Shown here: piece by piece, positions 2,441 to 17,794 of the stretch
How positions within the stretch are numbered: the first letter of the stretch is position 1
How the letters are laid out: every line of letters starts with the position of its first letter
Assembly: GCF_000299355.1 (NCBI RefSeq)
Contig: NC_018664.1
Location: forward strand, 2,774,380-2,838,379
From: Gottschalkia acidurici 9a
GTDB lineage: Bacteria; Bacillota; Clostridia; Tissierellales; Gottschalkiaceae
DNA: 64,000 nt
Direction: 5' to 3'
Program-made: the position numbers and the translations under genes
The notes under the pieces: generated by a model
The model's input: only the letters and a program-made list of their open reading frames with translations
Databases searched by the model: none
Told to the model about the DNA's origin: nothing

Positions 2441-3110
2441 TTCCCCACACCACCTTTAAATAATTTGGTTCTCTAGAATTGATCTCTATTTTTTCCCTTA
2501 TTCGTCTTATATGAACTGCCACTGTATTTTCAGCATTATAAGATGGTTCTTTCCAAACATTCTCATATATTTGATCTATGGAGAATACTTTTCCCTTGTT
2601 TTCCATTAAAAGTTCTAGTATCTTGTATTCGGTTAAAGTAAGTTTAACTTCTTCTCCATCTACTAAGACCATCTTTGTACTTTTATTTAAAATAAGACCC
2701 CTTACTTTCACTTCATCTTCACTTTCTTTATATTTTCCGAAATCTATATACCTTCTTAATTGTGATTTTACTCTTGCTACAAGTTCTAGAGGATTAAAGG
2801 GTTTTGTTATGTAATCATCTGCACCTATATTAAGACCTAATATCTTGTCTGTATCTTGTGACTTTGCAGAAAGCATTATTATAGGAATGTTTTTGTCTTC
2901 TCTAATTTTAAATGTAGCTTTTATTCCATCCATTCTAGGCATCATTATATCCATTATTATAATATGTATTTCCTCTTCACTTAATATTTCTAAAGCTTCT
3001 ATTCCATCACTAGCTTTGAGTATTTTCGTATTATTATCACTTAGATATATCTCTATAGCATCTCTTATTTCATCTTCATCATCTACAACTAAAATATTGT
3101 ACTTTTGCAC
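2418..3110 (-). CDS. OmpR/PhoB-family response regulator
   Basis: A 230-residue response regulator. The receiver domain (about 1-120) shows the acidic pair in VVDDEDE, the phosphoacceptor Asp in IIMDIMMPRMDG, the Thr/Ser position in IIMLSAKS and the Lys in DYITKPF. The winged-helix DNA-binding domain (about 130-230) ends VVWGIGYKIEK. It is the first gene of a two-gene operon with the overlapping kinase. Two perfect 11-bp direct repeats lie about 110 bp upstream (3220-3241), a typical binding arrangement for this family, so autoregulation is plausible. The targets are unknown. Confidence 0.93.
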   Translation of the reverse strand: MQKYNILVVDDEDEIRDAIEIYLSDNNTKILKASDGIEALEILSEEEIHIIIMDIMMPRMDGIKATFKIREDKNIPIIMLSAKSQDTDKILGLNIGADDYITKPFNPLELVARVKSQLRRYIDFGKYKESEDEVKVRGLILNKSTKMVLVDGEEVKLTLTEYKILELLMENKGKVFSIDQIYENVWKEPSYNAENTVAVHIRRIREKIEINSREPNYLKVVWGIGYKIEK

Positions 3111-3219
3111 ATCCGATCATCCTTTCAGTATATTAATTATTATTATAACATTCTGACCACCCCTTACTTTAACTGCAATCTTATTTTAATAGATATTTTT
3201 TACAAATTACTTACTAAAC

Positions 3220-3241
3220 TTCTTAAATATTTCTTAAATAT
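3220..3241 (-). promoter_or_regulatory. tandem 11-bp direct repeats upstream of the response regulator
   Basis: TTCTTAAATAT occurs twice without a gap. One-helical-turn spacing of direct repeats is how OmpR/PhoB dimers bind DNA. A related pair sits upstream of the second regulator at 38873-38894. Function as an operator is inferred. Confidence 0.5.
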
Positions 3242-3316
3242 TCTCATTATTATGCTTTTATGCAGTACCCTTTCTTTATATTTTTCATATTATATAAAGA
3301 GAAGGGAGAAGTGAGT

Positions 3317-4036
3317 ATGGATAACTCATATTCTGGTAATAATTTTAATCCTTCTGGCAAGGACTATAATATAAAAGAGAAAGAAAATAACACTAAGAAA
3401 AACAATAGTAATACACCTATCAGTGATAGTTCATGTACTTTAACTAATGAACTATCAAATCCTCTATACAATATTCCTGTTTTTCTTAGCTATGCAACTC
3501 CTTATAACGAGAATCAAATAATCTTTCTTAATAAAGTTATTGAAGAAATTAGAAGTATTCTGCTGTTTCCACGTACCCTTGGAGTAACTGAACAAGAAAC
3601 TGAGTCTCCTATTACTTCAATAAGAAGAATGATATTAACTAGTTATGGTATGTTAGCTGTAGCATTTCATCGTGTTCATATAGATAGTGCTGTTTCTAGA
3701 CCAAATACTTCTAGTGAACAAATTCATGTAGATATATGGCTAAGCAATCCTTATATTCAAATAGAACCTGCTATGGCATACCAACAAGGCTTACCACTAA
3801 TGATTATAGTTGAGGATGGAGTTCTCTTAGATGGAGTATTTGGAGGTATACTGGAGCAAGGTGCAATTCCGTTATTTATACCTCGATTTAGTGTTGAGAA
3901 TGAAGCTGCTATTAATGACTTTTTTAGTTCTGTAGCATGGAAATCTGTATTTTTAGATTGGGTAAGTCAGGTAAGAGCCTATTACGAGTCTGTAACTAAC
4001 AAAGTAATAATCCCAGGTGGAAATAGTCCATTTTAG
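3317..4036 (+). CDS. TIR/nucleoside-deoxyribosyltransferase-like protein of unknown function
   Basis: A 239-residue soluble protein with no signal peptide. The ATG at 3317 is chosen because GGGAG lies 8 bases upstream; an earlier in-frame ATG at 3260 has no such site. The first 50 or so residues are Asn/Ser/Lys-rich and look disordered. The rest looks like a single alpha/beta domain. It opens with VFLSYATPYNENQ, reminiscent of the first strand of TIR domains, and later has QIEPAMAYQQGLPLMIIVE, which resembles the Glu-containing motif of nucleoside 2-deoxyribosyltransferases (a Glu followed by an alanine-rich helix, then a strand). PRTLGVTEQETESPITSIRR may be the family signature. The fold call rests on short motifs only. 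It has its own terminator and no obvious partner enzyme next to it. An N-glycosidase or NAD-cleaving activity is a hypothesis. Confidence 0.6.
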   Translation: MDNSYSGNNFNPSGKDYNIKEKENNTKKNNSNTPISDSSCTLTNELSNPLYNIPVFLSYATPYNENQIIFLNKVIEEIRSILLFPRTLGVTEQETESPITSIRRMILTSYGMLAVAFHRVHIDSAVSRPNTSSEQIHVDIWLSNPYIQIEPAMAYQQGLPLMIIVEDGVLLDGVFGGILEQGAIPLFIPRFSVENEAAINDFFSSVAWKSVFLDWVSQVRAYYESVTNKVIIPGGNSPF

Positions 4037-4062
4037 ATAAAATTTATCTTTTAATATAAAAT

Positions 4063-4130
4063 AGCCCCCTTAAGGTAGACATACTATGTTGTATCAGTAT
4101 AGTCCTTACTTTAAGGGGCTTATGTTTTTT
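4063..4130 (+). terminator. long hairpin terminator
   Basis: AGCCCCCTTAAGGTAGAC pairs imperfectly with its complement ending TTTAAGGGGCT, followed by a T run. It lies 27 bases after the TIR-like gene. The stem is unusually long for a simple terminator, and it could be a leftover insertion-sequence end. Confidence 0.65.
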
Positions 4131-4173
4131 GAAATAAACCATATATTGTATCTAACTTAACTCTTTTCACGAG

Positions 4174-4410
4174 TTAAGCTCTTTTATATGGTGTTTTTTC
4201 ATTTGTTATGCCAAGTAGATAATCAATACTTGTGTCATAAAATAAAGCTAACCTAATTAATATTTCATTTGGAATGTTTCTTTCACCAGTTTCGTACTGT
4301 GAAAGAGTATTCTGAGCGATATTTAGCTTTTCTGCTACTTGCTTTTGACTTAAATTTTTATCATTTCTGATATCTCTTATCCTATTGTATTTTAGCATGT
4401 CATATCTCAT
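4174..4410 (-). CDS. XRE-family HTH repressor
   Basis: A 78-residue DNA-binding protein that is almost entirely one Cro/C1-type helix-turn-helix (about 10-66): LSQKQVAEKLNIAQNTLSQYETGER contains both helices. The ATG at 4410 follows GGTGAT. Two palindromes immediately upstream (4434-4452 and 4460-4476) are probable operators, so it likely represses its own promoter. Stand-alone regulators of this size are common on mobile elements and in toxin-antitoxin or host-takeover circuits. No partner toxin is recognisable here, and the nearest divergent gene starts about 370 bp beyond the operators. Confidence 0.88.
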   Translation of the reverse strand: MRYDMLKYNRIRDIRNDKNLSQKQVAEKLNIAQNTLSQYETGERNIPNEILIRLALFYDTSIDYLLGITNEKTPYKRA

Positions 4411-4433
4411 TCTATCACCAAGACAATAATATT

Positions 4434-4476
4434 ATATCTCAAATTGAGATATTGTTTATTATCTCAGATTGAGATA
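4434..4476. promoter_or_regulatory. double palindromic operator of the XRE repressor
   Basis: ATATCTC-AAATT-GAGATAT is a perfect dyad at 4434-4452. TATCTC-AGATT-GAGATA is a second at 4460-4476. Both have a 5-nt centre and differ at one central base. The centres are 25 bp apart, about two and a half helical turns. They lie 24-66 bases upstream of the repressor start. Assignment to this repressor is by position. Confidence 0.75.
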
Positions 4477-4847
4477 TAATTGTTTATATTAGTAAGAAAT
4501 TCTAAGGAAAAATCGTAAAACTATAAATTAAAAATAAAAATGTTTGTTAGTTTTTGAAAGTAATTTTTGACTTTATGTACCTTTTAATTATTTAGCCTAA
4601 ATAATTACTCTAGCATTTAAACACTCTTTACTTCTAAGATGGCAATTAATAAAGTGTTAGAATTTTATATTTTAAAAACTTATTAACTAGATTAAATAGT
4701 GTTTGTTTACGAAATAGAGTAATATTTGACTGTTATTATTCTATAAGAAATAAATATATGATTTGATAAGTCAATTGATTATTGTGTCAGTAAAAACAAT
4801 ACAAAATATATAATAAAAAACATAGAAATGCAAGGGGGATTAGTTTG
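4477..4847. other. AT-rich gap without a recognisable gene
   Basis: About 370 bases between the XRE operators and the next gene hold no convincing reading frame, repeat or hairpin. The promoter of the 4848 gene must lie in it, but I cannot place it with confidence. Confidence 0.4.
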
Positions 4848-5342
4848 ATGCATAATGCTATTATAGATTTATCAAAGAAGGGAATATATCAACAAAGACA
4901 TCTAGAAGATATTTTTGTTTTAAACAATGTAACAGATTCAGTAAAATATCAGTATTGTAAGATATATAAATACTTAATAGATAACCCAAATGAAGAAAAG
5001 AATATTGAGATGGCTTTGTATAATATAATCTCTAAATCGGAATTCACCAATGAATTAGCTATATTTTTATACTTGTATAGTGGAAATTTCACTTATTTTC
5101 AAGCAATTAAATTTACAGATAGTATTACAATAGATATCATTGACACTTATACCCCACTATGTAAATGGACACAAAGTACTCTTAAAACAATCTTTCTTAT
5201 ATTCACAAAATTAATTAATGATATAAAAATAAGTTTCAACAATATAGATGATATCTCAGATTATGTAGACTTTGATGGATCTTTAGATAACGAATTATTT
5301 ATTAAATCAAAAAAGTATATTGATAAAAAATATTGGAAGTGA
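4848..5342 (+). CDS. hypothetical protein, 164 aa
   Basis: ATG at 4848 with AGGGGGAT 8 bases upstream; the TTG codon just before it is less likely to be the start. The predicted protein is soluble, helix-rich, Lys/Ile/Asn-rich and free of a signal peptide. A hydrophobic stretch near 110-125 (TLKTIFLIFTKL) looks like an amphipathic helix rather than a membrane anchor. I recognise no family. The stop codon overlaps a GTG that may start the next, frameshifted gene (GTGA overlap), which suggests the two were co-translated. Confidence 0.7.
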   Translation: MHNAIIDLSKKGIYQQRHLEDIFVLNNVTDSVKYQYCKIYKYLIDNPNEEKNIEMALYNIISKSEFTNELAIFLYLYSGNFTYFQAIKFTDSITIDIIDTYTPLCKWTQSTLKTIFLIFTKLINDIKISFNNIDDISDYVDFDGSLDNELFIKSKKYIDKKYWK

Positions 5343-6877: not shown

Positions 6878-7795
6878 TTAAGTATTTAGATTATTACTTT
6901 CTATGTCTTTACTCTTAACTATTAATTTTCTCTCTGAAATATACACTCCAATAAGTATTAAAATACAACCTATTATCATTGTAACACTAATCTTTTCCCT
7001 AAGTACTATAGCAGATGTAACCATAGTAATTAAAGGTACAAGATATATATAGCTACTAGCTTTCACTATACCTATAATACTTATAGACTTATTCCACAGA
7101 ACAAAGCATAGTGCAGATGCTCCAAGACCTAAGAAAATCATATTATATATTAAGCTTAAGTTTATTTCATAATTAAAACTTATGTCATCTTTTAATAGTA
7201 GTATTGCAGGAATCATTGTAATAAGACCATAAAAGAACGTTCTTCTAACCACATAAAGCGAACTATACCTCTTATCAACCTTTTTTAATAATAGTGAGTA
7301 TAAAGCCCATAAAATAGCAGCTATTAATGCTAAAATATCCCCAAGAGGATTAATGTCTAACCTAAATGTCCCATTAAATATTACTAAAAATACTCCTAAT
7401 ATAGAGATTAAACATCCTATAACTAACATTTTTGAAATCTTCTCATCACGAGTAAAAATATGAGCAATTATTGCTGTTATAATAGGATTAATCGATACAA
7501 TTAGTCCTACATTTGAAGCCAAGGTAAAATCAAGAGCAATATTTTCAACTAGAAAATATAGTGTTACTCCTGTAAGGCCTAAGCTAAAAAACAATATCTC
7601 ATCTTTCATGCTATCTATTTTCTTAAACTTAGGATGTATTATAAGCATAGCTAAATAACCTATTAAAAACCTATAGAATAGTATCTCCACTGGTGACAAG
7701 TATTCTAATATAACTTTAGTAGATATAAAAGTTGTTCCCCATATAAATACAGTAACAAGAGTAATTAAGTGTGCAAATATAATTTTATTTTTCAT
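6878..7795 (-). CDS. EamA (DMT superfamily) transporter
   Basis: A 305-residue membrane protein with ten helices in two EamA repeats. HLITLVTVFIWGTTFISTK is a typical first helix of this family and GLGASALCFVLWNK is typical of the second repeat. The ATG at 7795 follows a strong AGGAGGA. That site is complementary to a segment about 27 bases upstream in the mRNA (7836-7847), so its translation may be controlled by RNA folding. The AraC regulator is encoded just upstream on the same strand and the second EamA gene follows 16 bases after the stop. The substrate is unknown. Confidence 0.9.
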   Translation of the reverse strand: MKNKIIFAHLITLVTVFIWGTTFISTKVILEYLSPVEILFYRFLIGYLAMLIIHPKFKKIDSMKDEILFFSLGLTGVTLYFLVENIALDFTLASNVGLIVSINPIITAIIAHIFTRDEKISKMLVIGCLISILGVFLVIFNGTFRLDINPLGDILALIAAILWALYSLLLKKVDKRYSSLYVVRRTFFYGLITMIPAILLLKDDISFNYEINLSLIYNMIFLGLGASALCFVLWNKSISIIGIVKASSYIYLVPLITMVTSAIVLREKISVTMIIGCILILIGVYISERKLIVKSKDIESNNLNT

Positions 7796-7847
7796 ATAAT
7801 CTCCTCCTATCTATTTAAACTTACTTTATTAGAGTTAGGAGGATTAT
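7796..7847 (-). promoter_or_regulatory. hairpin sequestering the EamA ribosome binding site
   Basis: On the minus strand ATAATCCTCCTA (7847-7836) can pair with TAGGAGGAGATTAT (7809-7796), with one bulged G and a loop of about 26 nt. The second arm contains the Shine-Dalgarno sequence of the gene starting at 7795. Whether this switches in response to a signal is unknown. Confidence 0.45.
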
Positions 7848-7862
7848 TATAGTAAAAAATTG

Positions 7863-8657
7863 CTATGTGACTTTATACTTTAAAGGAGTTACTCCAAAAT
7901 ATTGTTTAAATGACTTACTAAAATGGCTTTGATCATAAAAGCCTAGATCTTGAGCTATATCTGATATATCTTTTTTATCTTTTAATAGTTTTTTAGCATA
8001 GTTTAATCTCAACAAAGTTTGATAAGAATGAGGTGTTGTATTGAAGTAAAGTTTAAAGAGCCTTAGAGTATGATATTTACTTAGATTACTATATCTTGTT
8101 AGATCATCAAGTGTAATTTTCTCTAAGAAGTTATCATCAATATATTTTCTCGCCATTTTAATGGAGTCTTTATCTGTATGTCTGCTACTAAAGTTTTTCA
8201 ACACATAACTTTCCATGTTAAGTAAGTAGTCTATATCTGTAATTAGCCTGCTTTCTTTCTCTATATTGGAAATGTCTTTTCTAAGAATTGCAAATAATTC
8301 TATCATTCTATATATATCCCTACTCATAAGCTCTTTGACTAATATATTTTCACTTTTCAATTCAGTATCAAAAACAGACTCTATCCAGTCTTTTTTCAAG
8401 TATAGCATAGAAAATTTCCAACTTTCGATAGATGTTGGAGTACATTTGTGTATAACACCTGGATATATTATAACAGCTGTCCTTGAATCTACATTGTAAC
8501 TTTTTTCACCACAATTAACTGTACTTGATCCTTTCTCAATAATGCCTATGGACAATTCTTCATGAGAATGATCTTTTGATGAATGTATTCCTGAATCACA
8601 ACTTTTAATTTCAAATATAGGTAATTTGTCATCTCTAAAATAACTTATTTTATTCAT
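7863..8657 (-). CDS. AraC-family transcriptional regulator with cupin sensor
   Basis: 264 residues from the ATG at 8657, which follows AGAGGTAA; an in-frame TTG at 8675 is less likely. The N-terminal half (about 10-90) looks like a cupin sensor: HEELSIGIIEKGSSTVNC, then IIYPGVIHKCTP. The C-terminal 100 residues hold two helix-turn-helix motifs with the family signature IAQDLGFYDQSHFSKSFKQ followed by FGVTPLKYK. The two EamA exporters lie directly downstream on the same strand, so it probably controls them. Such pairs often respond to the exported compound. Confidence 0.92.
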   Translation of the reverse strand: MNKISYFRDDKLPIFEIKSCDSGIHSSKDHSHEELSIGIIEKGSSTVNCGEKSYNVDSRTAVIIYPGVIHKCTPTSIESWKFSMLYLKKDWIESVFDTELKSENILVKELMSRDIYRMIELFAILRKDISNIEKESRLITDIDYLLNMESYVLKNFSSRHTDKDSIKMARKYIDDNFLEKITLDDLTRYSNLSKYHTLRLFKLYFNTTPHSYQTLLRLNYAKKLLKDKKDISDIAQDLGFYDQSHFSKSFKQYFGVTPLKYKVT

Positions 8658-14803: not shown

Positions 14804-15104
14804 ATTCTTGCTTCTCCTTTTTATAATATTCAAAACTATTATTCCCCTAATGATAATTTTTATTTTAAAATAATAAATTTACCTTATTTTATCTTATTAA
14901 TTTTTTTATGAATATTATGGTATGTGAAAATAGATAAAGCTATTGAGAAAGCATAGTTATTAAAAATAACTTCATCAAAGAATTGTGAAATTTATATTTC
15001 TGAAATGATAATAACCTATAATTTTTGTCAATGGAACAAGGCTAGAGTTCTCAAGTAACAAATTTGATATTATAGTCTCTAAGTATAAAATATAGTACTA
15101 AAAT

Positions 15105-15150
15105 ATTAATGAGCCATAGAATTTTTAATATATTCCTATGGCTCATTAAT
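15105..15150 (-). terminator. hairpin terminator
   Basis: ATTAATGAGCCATAG and its exact complement are separated by 16 bases. It lies 39 bases downstream of the minus-strand small gene at 15189, followed by T on that strand. Confidence 0.65.
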
Positions 15151-15188
15151 TATAATTTTATTTTAATTTTTATTTTTTTATAATTCTT

Positions 15189-15404
15189 CTAATGAAGACT
15201 TATTTCAAAGCTATCTTCATGTTCTTTAGGTATGTATCTTATATTTGTATGTGTGTCTAAGTATAGTATTCTATTACCATCTGAAGTTTGTATAACATCT
15301 AATTCTTCCCCATCTTTTATCTGTACTGTAGTCGCTAAAACTCCTTCATAGTTAGTATAAGAAAATTTTTGCTTACTTACTGCCTTCCCAATTATTTGTG
15401 ACAT
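15189..15404 (-). CDS. small hypothetical protein, 71 aa
   Basis: ATG 15404 has an excellent AAGGGGGAG site. The protein is small, soluble and beta-rich, opening MSQIIGKAVSKQKFSYTNYEGV. No signal peptide and no Cys. I do not recognise the family. The strong ribosome binding site and dedicated terminator argue that it is a real gene. It stands alone between long AT-rich gaps. Confidence 0.7.
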   Translation of the reverse strand: MSQIIGKAVSKQKFSYTNYEGVLATTVQIKDGEELDVIQTSDGNRILYLDTHTNIRYIPKEHEDSFEISLH

Positions 15405-15836
15405 TTTAGTCTCCCCCTTTTATTTTGTTTGTTAGTCAGTAATAAAGTTTTAAACTTAAAATAAGACTAAACCTTTAATTTATAGAAATAGCTTAATTTC
15501 CTCTACATTTATACATATTATATTAGTCATACATGTATAACTTAGTACAAAATGAAATGAGAAAAATTATACTAATTTCAGCTTATTAGCTAAATTTCGT
15601 GATACTTTTAACAATTCTAATCAGTAATCTAAGCCTGAAATTTTTATTTATGTAAAACATATTTATACTCTCACAAAACCTATATACCCAATGTAAAGAG
15701 TTTTATTCTCCTATTTTTCTAATTTATAGTTATTTTTCAGTCGTATTTCCAACCATATTGCCAATTTTCTTTATAGTATTTTAGTTAAAATGTTGTCTAA
15801 TTATGATAAAATATAGTTTACGATAAATTAAAACAT
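15405..15836. other. AT-rich gap between divergent genes
   Basis: About 430 bases without a credible gene. It must hold the divergent promoters of the small gene at 15404 and the ABC-F gene. No attenuator or riboswitch-like fold was evident by eye, though ABC-F leaders often carry one. Confidence 0.35.
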
Positions 15837-15850
15837 AAAGGATGATTCAA

Positions 15851-17794
15851 ATGAACGTTTTATCTGCTGAAAATATTTCTAAAAGTTATGGAATCAAATC
15901 ATTATTTAATGATATTTCTTTTACTATAAGTGATACTGATAAAGTTGGTGTTATAGGAATAAACGGAACAGGTAAATCTACACTTCTCAAAGTTATAGCT
16001 GGATATGAGCCTGTAGATAGTGGAACTATAACCATTCCAAATGGAGTAACTTTAGAGTACCTATCTCAAAATCCTAATTTCAATCTAGATATTACAGTTC
16101 TAGAGCAAGTATTTAAAGGAGATTCTCCTAACATGATTGTTATTAGGGATTATGAAAGAGCATTAGAAGATTCTATAAAGAATCCTAATGATGAAAAAAT
16201 TCAAGATCGTCTAATAAAATTAACTGATGATATGAATAAATTGAATGCTTGGGAACTTGAGAGCCAAGCTAAGGCTATTCTGACTAAGCTTGGTATAACT
16301 GAGTTTGATAAAAAGATTCATACTCTTTCTGGCGGTCAGAAGAAGAGAATTGCTCTTGCAAGTGCTCTTATAACTCCTTGTGATTTATTGATTTTAGATG
16401 AGCCTACTAACCACATGGATAGTGATACTATAGATTGGCTAGAAAAGTATCTTGAAAATAGAAAAGGTGCATTAATTATGATTACCCATGATAGATATTT
16501 TCTAGATAGAGTAGTTAATAAGACCCTAGAGCTTGACTGTGGTAAGCTTTATACTTATACAGGTAACTACTCACAATTTTTAGAGAAAAAGCTAGAAAGG
16601 CAAGCTTTAGAGTCTACTATGGAACATAAGAGACAGAGACTATATAAAAAGGAACTAGAATGGATAAGAACTGGAGCCAGAGCTAGAACTACTAAGCAAA
16701 AAGCTAGAATTCAAAGATTTGAAGAAATTAAGAATTCTAAAGTAGAAGTAAATGACTCTACTTTAGATATATCTGTAAGTGGCTCTAGGCTTGGACAAAA
16801 AATTATAGAGATTAAAAACTTATCTAAATCTTTTGATGAAAAAGTATTTATTAAAGATTTTACTTATACATTTCTAAAAGATGATAGAATCGGAGTAATT
16901 GGAAACAGTGGTATAGGTAAATCAACACTTTTGAACATAATTGTTGGAAAAATTGAAGCAGACTCTGGTAGCGTTGATATTGGATCTACAGTAAATATAG
17001 CTTATTTTTCTCAAGAGTCTCAGGATATGAATCCAAACTTGCGAGCTATTGAATATATTAAAGAAAGTGGAGAGTTCGTAACTACTGCAGATGGTACTAA
17101 GATAAGTGCATCTCAGATGATGGAAAGGTTTTTGTTTACTTCTGATATGCAATGGTCTTATATCTCTAAATTATCTGGCGGTGAAAGAAGAAGACTATAC
17201 CTTTTAAAAGTATTAATGACTTCTCCAAATGTGTTAATATTAGACGAACCTACTAACGACTTAGACTTAGACACTCTTAAAGTTTTAGAAAACTATATAC
17301 ATGAGTTTAGTGGCCCTGTTATTACCGTTTCTCATGATAGATATTTTCTAGATGTAATATGTAATAAGATCTTATCTTTTGAGAATGATGGAAATATAAT
17401 AATGAACGTGGGAAATCATTCTGATTTTGTGGATAAAAGAGACTTACTTGTTAGTAATGTTAATAGTTCAAAAAATAATAATGTTTCTAAAGATACTTCT
17501 GAAGAGAAGGAAGCTTCTAAAGAGTATAAATCAAAATCTAAAAAAACAAAGTTTACTTATAACGAGCAAAGAGAATACGAAAAAATCGATTCTGAAATAG
17601 AAGCTCTTGAGAAAGAAATAGATAAAATCGACAATGAAATGGAGCTATATTCTAGTGACTTCACTAAATTACAGGAACTACTTGAGAGAAAAGAAAAAAT
17701 TGAAGAAGAGTACTTGTTTAAACTTGAACGTCAAGAATACTTCGTGAATCTAGAGAGTGAAATTAAGAATAACCTATTGAGTTCTAGAAGCTAA
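15851..17794 (+). CDS. ABC-F family ATPase (Uup/YdiF-like)
   Basis: 647 residues from ATG 15851, chosen over ATG 15842 because AAAGGA sits 8 bases upstream of it. Two ATPase domains with no membrane part: Walker A GINGTGKST (about 36-44) and GNSGIGKST (about 354), signatures LSGGQKKR and LSGGERRR, Walker B LLILDEPTNHMD and LILDEPTNDLD. The linker between domains carries a charged helix, and the C-terminus (about 565-645) is a predicted coiled coil. ABC-F proteins act on the ribosome as translation factors or, in some branches, in antibiotic resistance. The coiled-coil tail favours the Uup/YdiF housekeeping type. The hairpin at 17831 ends the transcript. Confidence 0.92.
   Translation: MNVLSAENISKSYGIKSLFNDISFTISDTDKVGVIGINGTGKSTLLKVIAGYEPVDSGTITIPNGVTLEYLSQNPNFNLDITVLEQVFKGDSPNMIVIRDYERALEDSIKNPNDEKIQDRLIKLTDDMNKLNAWELESQAKAILTKLGITEFDKKIHTLSGGQKKRIALASALITPCDLLILDEPTNHMDSDTIDWLEKYLENRKGALIMITHDRYFLDRVVNKTLELDCGKLYTYTGNYSQFLEKKLERQALESTMEHKRQRLYKKELEWIRTGARARTTKQKARIQRFEEIKNSKVEVNDSTLDISVSGSRLGQKIIEIKNLSKSFDEKVFIKDFTYTFLKDDRIGVIGNSGIGKSTLLNIIVGKIEADSGSVDIGSTVNIAYFSQESQDMNPNLRAIEYIKESGEFVTTADGTKISASQMMERFLFTSDMQWSYISKLSGGERRRLYLLKVLMTSPNVLILDEPTNDLDLDTLKVLENYIHEFSGPVITVSHDRYFLDVICNKILSFENDGNIIMNVGNHSDFVDKRDLLVSNVNSSKNNNVSKDTSEEKEASKEYKSKSKKTKFTYNEQREYEKIDSEIEALEKEIDKIDNEMELYSSDFTKLQELLERKEKIEEEYLFKLERQEYFVNLESEIKNNLLSSRS

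Follow-up and report, generated by a model that had tools for sequence, protein, structure and literature searches.

A probable sporulation-regulated enzyme of the TIR-DrHyd-SLOG class in Gottschalkia acidurici 9a

Background

TIR effectors deplete NAD+ or nucleotides in abortive infection, and TIR and deoxyribosyltransferase-type domains are easily taken for the products of defence genes. The described proteins that are most like the one considered here fall into two groups, 1) members of the DrHyd superfamily, namely the CMP N-glycosidases MilB and BcmB, DNPH1 and the nucleoside deoxyribosyltransferases (NDTs), which have a glutamate at the start of the helix that follows strand 3, and 2) the TIR domains of ThsB, TIR-STING and SARM1. 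The passages of PMC9503650 that deal with the TIR-DrHyd-SLOG class locate the active site at the helix after strand 3. Membership of a CBASS, Thoeris or Pycsar system is judged by an adjacent cyclase, ThsA/ThsB or a TIR partner.

A different kind of described system is the sigma-K regulon of Clostridioides difficile and Bacillus subtilis, whose promoters, according to passages of PMC3789822 and PMC517825, have a -35 AC and a CATA-type -10, as does the site described below. The -35 AC separates sigma-K from sigma-E promoters, which have a similar -10 (passages of PMC3789822, see also PMC517825). No TIR or deoxyribosyltransferase member of the regulon was met in those passages, and the main text of PMC3789822 does not use the term deoxyribosyltransferase. 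Among the papers listed by full-text searches of PMC, judged by title and opening of the abstract, none linked endospore formation to a TIR or deoxyribosyltransferase-type protein; the searches cover open-licence papers only and are thus weak evidence of absence. In the same open-licence text, the terms "TIR domain", "sporulation" and "forespore" co-occur in one paper, a jumbo-phage survey.

The window analysed here is a stretch of 64,000 nucleotides of the G. acidurici 9a genome (NC_018664.1, positions 2,774,380 to 2,838,379 of the forward strand). A sequence-only reading had proposed that one of its open reading frames encodes a stand-alone TIR/deoxyribosyltransferase-like protein with a disordered N-terminus and a possible part in phage defence.

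Results

Organization of the locus

The open reading frame at 3317-4036 (+ strand), present in a single copy in its own genome, has a translation that holds VFLSYATPYNENQ and QIEPAMAYQQG. The gene and its immediate surroundings comprise the following features.

3267-3294, + strand: sigma-K-type promoter of 28 bases, with the -35 AC at 3267-3268, a 17-nt spacer and the -10 CATATTATA at 3286-3294; 8 of 8 scored bases, 22 nt before the ATG
3300-3308, + strand: ribosome-binding site AGAAGGGAG, read from the sequence
3317-4036, + strand: whole gene, 239 residues, apparently monocistronic
3317-3466, + strand: N-terminal extension, residues 1-50, low-confidence/disordered and typical of the Firmicutes branch of the family
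3467-3991, + strand: predicted TIR/DrHyd-type Rossmannoid core, residues 51-225, from AlphaFold2 and structure comparison
3764-3766, + strand: codon of E150, the candidate catalytic glutamate and fifth residue of the helix 146-156, invariant in 67 of 67 homologues
4101-4120, + strand: terminator-like hairpin downstream of the gene
4174-4410, - strand: XRE-type gene (HTH_3, E 2.9e-17)

The near neighbours of the gene are a two-component system, the XRE gene, an orphan open reading frame and, by eye, EamA-like transporters, the response regulator and histidine kinase lying upstream on the opposite strand. The XRE repressor and the unknown genes of the earlier description were recovered: the XRE gene is real, and the further neighbour at 4845-5342 (+ strand, 165 residues) belongs to no convincing family, having no convincing match in Pfam, NCBIfam, PADLOC or PHROGs. 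An adjacent cyclase, ThsA/ThsB or TIR partner, as would mark a CBASS, Thoeris or Pycsar system, was absent at the gene.

Predicted fold and the conserved glutamate

Searches with the protein itself (P0001) gave no Pfam, NCBIfam, PADLOC or PHROGs matches at E values up to 1, the Pfam TIR_2 and ThsB_TIR profiles included, and sequence searches of the PDB with P0001, A4 and the L123 member were equally empty. TIR_2 was matched by 7 of the 67 family members (best E 0.0014), and the Pfam nucleoside deoxyribosyltransferase models matched neither P0001 nor any of the 67. No signal peptide or membrane segment was evident by eye.

The AlphaFold2 model of the protein, computed with 62 sequences, had a mean pLDDT of 82 and a pTM of 0.73. 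Residues 1-50 were unstructured, and the N-terminus was therefore correctly described as disordered, since the pLDDT over these residues was 55-58. Block means over residues 51-230 were mostly 85-98, with dips to 70-80 at residues 91-100 and 171-190.

Comparison of the model with known structures by VIA-align placed it close to the TIR domain of SfSTING (Z 12.3, rmsd 2.8, 127 residues aligned), the CMP N-glycosidase MilB (4jem; Z 12.0, rmsd 3.4, 134 aligned), DNPH1 (Z 11.5, rmsd 2.9, 130 aligned), NDT (Z 11.2, rmsd 3.1, 130 aligned) and the SARM1 TIR domain (Z 10.8, rmsd 3.3, 129 aligned). The flavodoxin-like protein ArsH scored slightly lower (Z 10.2, rmsd 5.2, 154 aligned). Plain Foldseek was weaker, with two matches at E values up to 0.001, both of them SARM1 TIR domains, the better having an E value of 7.8e-4 and a TM-score of 0.35 by query and 0.54 by target. 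The model of a compact relative, the L034 member (pLDDT 83, pTM 0.80), was closest to MilB (Z 13.9, rmsd 3.0, 133 aligned) and to NDT-like enzymes; a flavo-di-iron protein, which is also flavodoxin-like, followed slightly below the enzyme-fold scores at Z 11.1. The core of the protein is thus confidently predicted to have a TIR/deoxyribosyltransferase-type fold, in agreement with what had been suspected from the letters alone. It resembles MilB/BcmB, DNPH1 and the NDTs in this fold and in the place of its glutamate but shares only 6-15% identity with them among the matches listed.

In the alignment of homologues, E150, G111, P160 and G177 were invariant (67 of 67), as were F56, S58 and Q67 (66 of 66), and Q148 was kept in 65 of 67. 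E150, which lies in the helix that comes after strand 3 and an inserted hairpin, was found in 42 of 42 rows of the Firmicutes branch and in 25 of 25 other rows. S58 and Q67 are polar residues after strand 1 and were kept in all rows of both branches that have these columns. The motif IEPAMAY had been read as a catalytic-glutamate region, and this reading has held, in that the invariant E150 occupies the place of the catalytic glutamate in such enzymes. The register comes from a profile alignment with neighbouring TIR proteins, in which E150 fell on their invariant glutamate with a non-significant score (probability 0.5%, E 0.11); to that extent the protein is like the TIR domains of ThsB, TIR-STING and SARM1 in glutamate register as well as in fold, although P0001 itself has no TIR profile match.

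Distribution and phylogeny of the family

Relatives were collected from plasmid matches, a viral scan and one genome scan. The genome scan kept 80 of its 119 confirmed relatives, so that family counts describe the sample only. P0001 used alone retrieved no relative from phage records or viral contigs, and Hymenobacter plasmid matches (E 0.05-0.6), which look like chance, were rejected. Three rows lacked a family ORF in simple gene calls (L006, L043 and L048) and do not enter the counts, L043 and L048 still being tblastn relatives.

The hosts are Bacilli, Clostridia, Pseudomonadota, Actinomycetota, Acidobacteriota, Bacteroidota and others, and also Methanosarcina and one haloarchaeon. An archaeal copy (L124:7880-8394) is contained in two overlapping ORFs. 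The gene is rare: it was found in 2 of 100 genomes of the window's order and in 3 of 398 of the phylum, with the window's own genome counted in both, and two of these three phylum genomes have fragments with stops. L098 and L099 are remnants of the family, each a fragment interrupted by stops, from two phylum genomes that consist of a single contig. Other groups had the family in 3 of 296, 1 of 296, 4 of 294 and 2 of 300 genomes, each group including at least one already known carrier. Because the distribution is patchy, the broad housekeeping occurrence that would have spoken against a defence-type gene does not apply, and because the gene is rare even in its own order, it is not a core sporulation gene.

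A tree was computed from 90 rows; L001, L015, L121, L124, L126 and the near-identical viral copies L008-L014 were left out, and the midpoint root serves for drawing only. The family was split into 61 and 29 rows by a dividing branch 4.47 long with a support of 100/100. The 61-row branch is nearly all Firmicutes and has the window gene near its base, the nearest row being L016 (52% identity). The inner order of the 29-row branch is unsure because of its long branches. The two branches also differ in the length of the N-terminal tail: 37 of 41 rows of the Firmicutes branch have 31-74 residues ahead of the F56 column, versus 5-10 in 19 of 24 rows of the other branch and 29-47 in its remaining five, some starts being uncertain.

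Gene neighbourhoods of the two branches

In the 29-row branch, TIR, caspase, 8xMP, SLATT or Pycsar-like genes adjoin 10 rows, one of which lies in a CBASS operon that includes Cap15. These are all of the tree rows labelled for defence-type neighbours; the labels were assigned by us, and that of L066 is weak (a DUF4062 match below the cut-off). Neighbours were tallied in 31 hand-picked loci, 25 from the other branch and six from the window's branch (L016-L019, L030 and L079), using 115 of 128 listed genes. The commonest Pfam families among the 115 were ThsB_TIR (6), TIR_2 (5) and 8xMP (3), and each had fewer than 2 members among the 99 genes 5-8 places off in the same loci, as judged from the 25 commonest families. 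A TIR profile seeded with near genes and run over 1,517 genes of 91 loci (viral copies L008-L014 left out) gave 10 matches, all among the 511 genes at most 3 places from the family gene and none beyond.

The individual loci are varied. L123, a CBASS operon (L123:7838-10040), has a CD-NTase (PADLOC cyclase, E 4.6e-94), Cap15 (Cap15_CD_rec, E 2.4e-12) and, as its third gene, a family member that has a hydrophobic C-terminal segment and no PADLOC match. P0001 and this member share 30% identity over 128 residues (E 1e-18; profile E 3.5e-19). In the viral contig L112 (6597-11297), a family member is clustered with two TIR genes, a caspase-like gene and a gene for a calcineurin-like phosphoesterase; L112 and L123 came from later searches and lie outside the 31 loci. 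On a haloarchaeal plasmid (L005:3757-7280), the family member is accompanied by 8xMP, two TIR genes and a PycC-like cyclase. Further examples of neighbours are TIR and 8xMP (L015), 8xMP (L021), DUF4231/SLATT (L028), caspase and SEFIR (L032), ThsB_TIR (L034 and L088) and SLOG cluster2 plus TIR (L073). Defence-type neighbours were not seen in many other loci of this branch (e.g. L023, L068 and L075).

Two further observations concern the same branch. The L119 member (7788-8417) has, by eye, a tail like that of the L123 member and no CBASS operon. Upstream of the Rhodococcus plasmid member, at L004:4500-5422, is a stretch that by eye is TIR-like, split between frames and fused to Pterin_4a.

In the 61 rows of the window's branch, profiles found no TIR, 8xMP, caspase or SLATT gene. 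Similarly, when 123 near genes from 53 Firmicutes loci were tallied (125 of 145 near genes taken at random, two very long ones removed), the 25 commonest families included no TIR or other defence family; since the tallies show the 25 commonest families, a single TIR gene could hide among the far or the Firmicutes genes. An MscS neighbour in Paenibacillus (7 of the 123 near genes) was read as vertical inheritance. The survey for defence genes around the family thus succeeded in the sister branch and found none in the branch to which the window gene belongs.

A sigma-K-type promoter

The motif tested, AC-N16/17-CATANNNTA with 8 scored bases, is one that we take to be the sigma-K consensus. It agrees with passages of PMC3789822 and PMC517825. 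Start codons were chosen by the ribosome-binding site, and sites were counted 12-50 nt upstream. By sequence, the window gene carries a putative sigma-K promoter, with AC and CATANNNTA at a usable distance from the start. The gene is not an independent case because the motif AC-N17-CATATTATA was spotted by eye there before testing. Counting both strands, the 64 kb of the window contain 13 sites at 8/8, of which two are close to a potential start codon, and a single site is therefore weak evidence by itself.

Across the branch, 8/8 sites preceded 14 of 60 members versus 3 of 571 control genes, which are other genes at these loci (Fisher 6e-13), and sites of at least 7/8 preceded 42 of 60 members versus 40 of 571 control genes (Fisher 1.6e-28). 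The counts hold without the window gene (13 of 59 at 8/8). They leave out the viral copies L008-L014 and L079, which is inside the branch by the tree and scored 5/8; the other 18 of the 60 members were below 7/8 in the 12-50 nt interval. When the interval was extended to 110 nt, the figures were 15 of 60 (8/8) and 46 of 60 (at least 7/8), versus 3 and 75 of 571. In 24 of these 46 members the -10 was 18-26 nt from the start, and in 12, all Paenibacillaceae, it was 40-45 nt away. The 22 tested rows of the other branch, which exclude L004, L005, L112, L119, L120, L122 and L123, had no site at 8/8 and two at 7/8 or better.

Neither relatedness nor base composition reproduced these counts. The 60 members form 11 clusters at 70% identity, of which 9 had a median score of 7 or more, versus a mean of 1.4 and a maximum of 6 in 2,000 resamplings of control genes. 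When each cluster was reduced to a single representative, 7 of 11 reached 7/8 (permuted motifs: mean 0.9, best 4). None of 120 permuted motifs reached 42 of 60 (mean 4.4, best 20).

Transcription by sigma-E is possible because sigma-E and sigma-K share the -10. A strict sigma-E pattern was not enriched (1 of 59 members versus 3 of 560 control genes), and a relaxed one was slightly so (7 of 59 versus 31 of 560). A strict sigma-G pattern was not enriched either (0 of 59 versus 3 of 560). A vegetative sigma-70 promoter was considered and rejected, promoter-like sites in 2900-4900 being no more frequent than in shuffled sequence (12 vs 14.3).

Sporulation genes of the host

The hosts of the window's branch are, from their genus names, presumably spore-formers. 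In G. acidurici, spoIVA scored 776 bits, over the cut-off, and the sporulation signature gene yabG was not found (0 of 1). The sigK gene is in two halves, N- and C-terminal ORFs about 11.5 kb apart on one strand, none of them over the sigK cut-off, with a skin-like element within it (G000:C2:1449645-1461928, equivalent to L135:646-12929). Between the halves, beside the first, is a large serine recombinase ORF. Other ORFs of the element are ones that we take to resemble CotF, DUF1259 and YmaF proteins. A skin element in sigK of B. subtilis and C. difficile is described in passages of PMC3789822. On these sequence matches, the host appears to have sigK and sporulation genes.

The host sigK has a 7/8 site with the -10 CATATAAT, which is the -10 of C. 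difficile sigK P2 as printed in a passage of PMC3789822. As a positive control, the DUF1259-like gene within this element has an 8/8 site at the same distance from its ATG as the window gene, 22 nt. The YmaF-like ORF has a 7/8 site at 56 nt, and the recombinase and CotF-like ORFs have no site of at least 7/8 within 150 nt.

Discussion

The window gene probably encodes a sporulation-regulated enzyme of the TIR-DrHyd-SLOG class, as judged from sequence comparison and a predicted model. It would be a late mother-cell gene that sigma-K RNA polymerase transcribes, with its promoter directly next to the ribosome-binding site. The product would be a soluble enzyme with a core that binds a nucleotide and in which E150, acting as a nucleophile or general base, may cleave the N-glycosidic bond of a nucleoside monophosphate, a nucleoside or NAD+. 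The N-terminal tail may dock the enzyme to an assembling spore layer or to a partner. A position in the spore coat is suggested tentatively, by analogy with the many known products of sigma-K-dependent genes that are coat proteins (passages of PMC3789822). The sporulation-type promoter and the N-terminal tail set the protein apart from MilB/BcmB, DNPH1 and the NDTs. Loci with CBASS, Thoeris or Pycsar components contain relatives from the other branch, whereas the window gene has no such partner.

In a variant of this sporulation reading, the enzyme stays in the cytosol and depletes NAD+ or nucleotides in mother-cell death. The sigma-K-type promoter, the TIR/DrHyd fold with its invariant glutamate and a sequence in which neither signal peptide nor membrane segment is evident by eye would all fit a terminal role of this kind. 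However, NMP N-glycosidases resemble the core no less closely than NADase TIRs do, and the branch-typical tail suggests localisation, so that we consider the variant unlikely. We are similarly doubtful of a broader proposal, that spore-formers drew on the TIR-DrHyd immune repertoire for a nucleotide glycosidase of the abortive-infection type and placed it under sigma-K, the doomed mother cell or the spore surface then carrying a destroyer of NAD+ or nucleotides. If true, it would connect immune suicide in bacteria directly, in evolutionary terms, with the developmental death of the mother cell or with protection of the spore.

Less probable still is a protein that has kept the fold without catalysis, as a nucleotide sensor or a structural component of the spore. 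Inactive members of the TIR-DrHyd-SLOG class do serve as nucleotide sensors (passages of PMC9503650), but E150 and the polar residues S58 and Q67 are retained throughout both branches wherever an aligned row has these columns, which argues against it.

The phage-defence role proposed in the sequence-only reading suits the other branch, with its TIR, CBASS, Pycsar-like and caspase neighbours, but for the window gene a stand-alone anti-phage NADase or nucleotidase effector, its sigma-K-type site being a chance or secondary promoter, is very improbable and was dropped as the first choice after the tree and promoter tests, since the fold, the sister branch in defence loci (the CBASS operon and TIR/caspase clusters among them), the copies of the window's branch in prophage-type viral contigs and the patchy distribution are set against the failure to find defence-type neighbours in 61 rows, a conserved sporulation-type promoter and the absence of a PADLOC match for P0001.

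The preferred reading, a sporulation-regulated enzyme, makes the family one in which one lineage occurs at defence loci, among them a CBASS operon with a third gene that PADLOC-DB does not match, while its sister lineage looks developmental. If confirmed, it would give an immune-type fold a role in sporulation and offer a case in which recruitment between immunity and programmed development can be tested. The family also warns that the fold alone is insufficient for calling a gene defensive.

Copies on viral contigs and a plasmid

The viral contigs L007-L014 have near-identical copies of the window-type branch. In L008 terminase and portal-like ORFs are on the strand opposite to the family gene (8028-8654), and at 14864-16279 there is a collagen-like ORF. 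On the plasmid pBM300 (L002:1937-9748), the homologue of Priestia megaterium QM B1551 (WP_098325134.1) lies among genes annotated as YheC/YheD, collagen-like, YvrJ and Spo0E-type, names that we take to recall spore functions.
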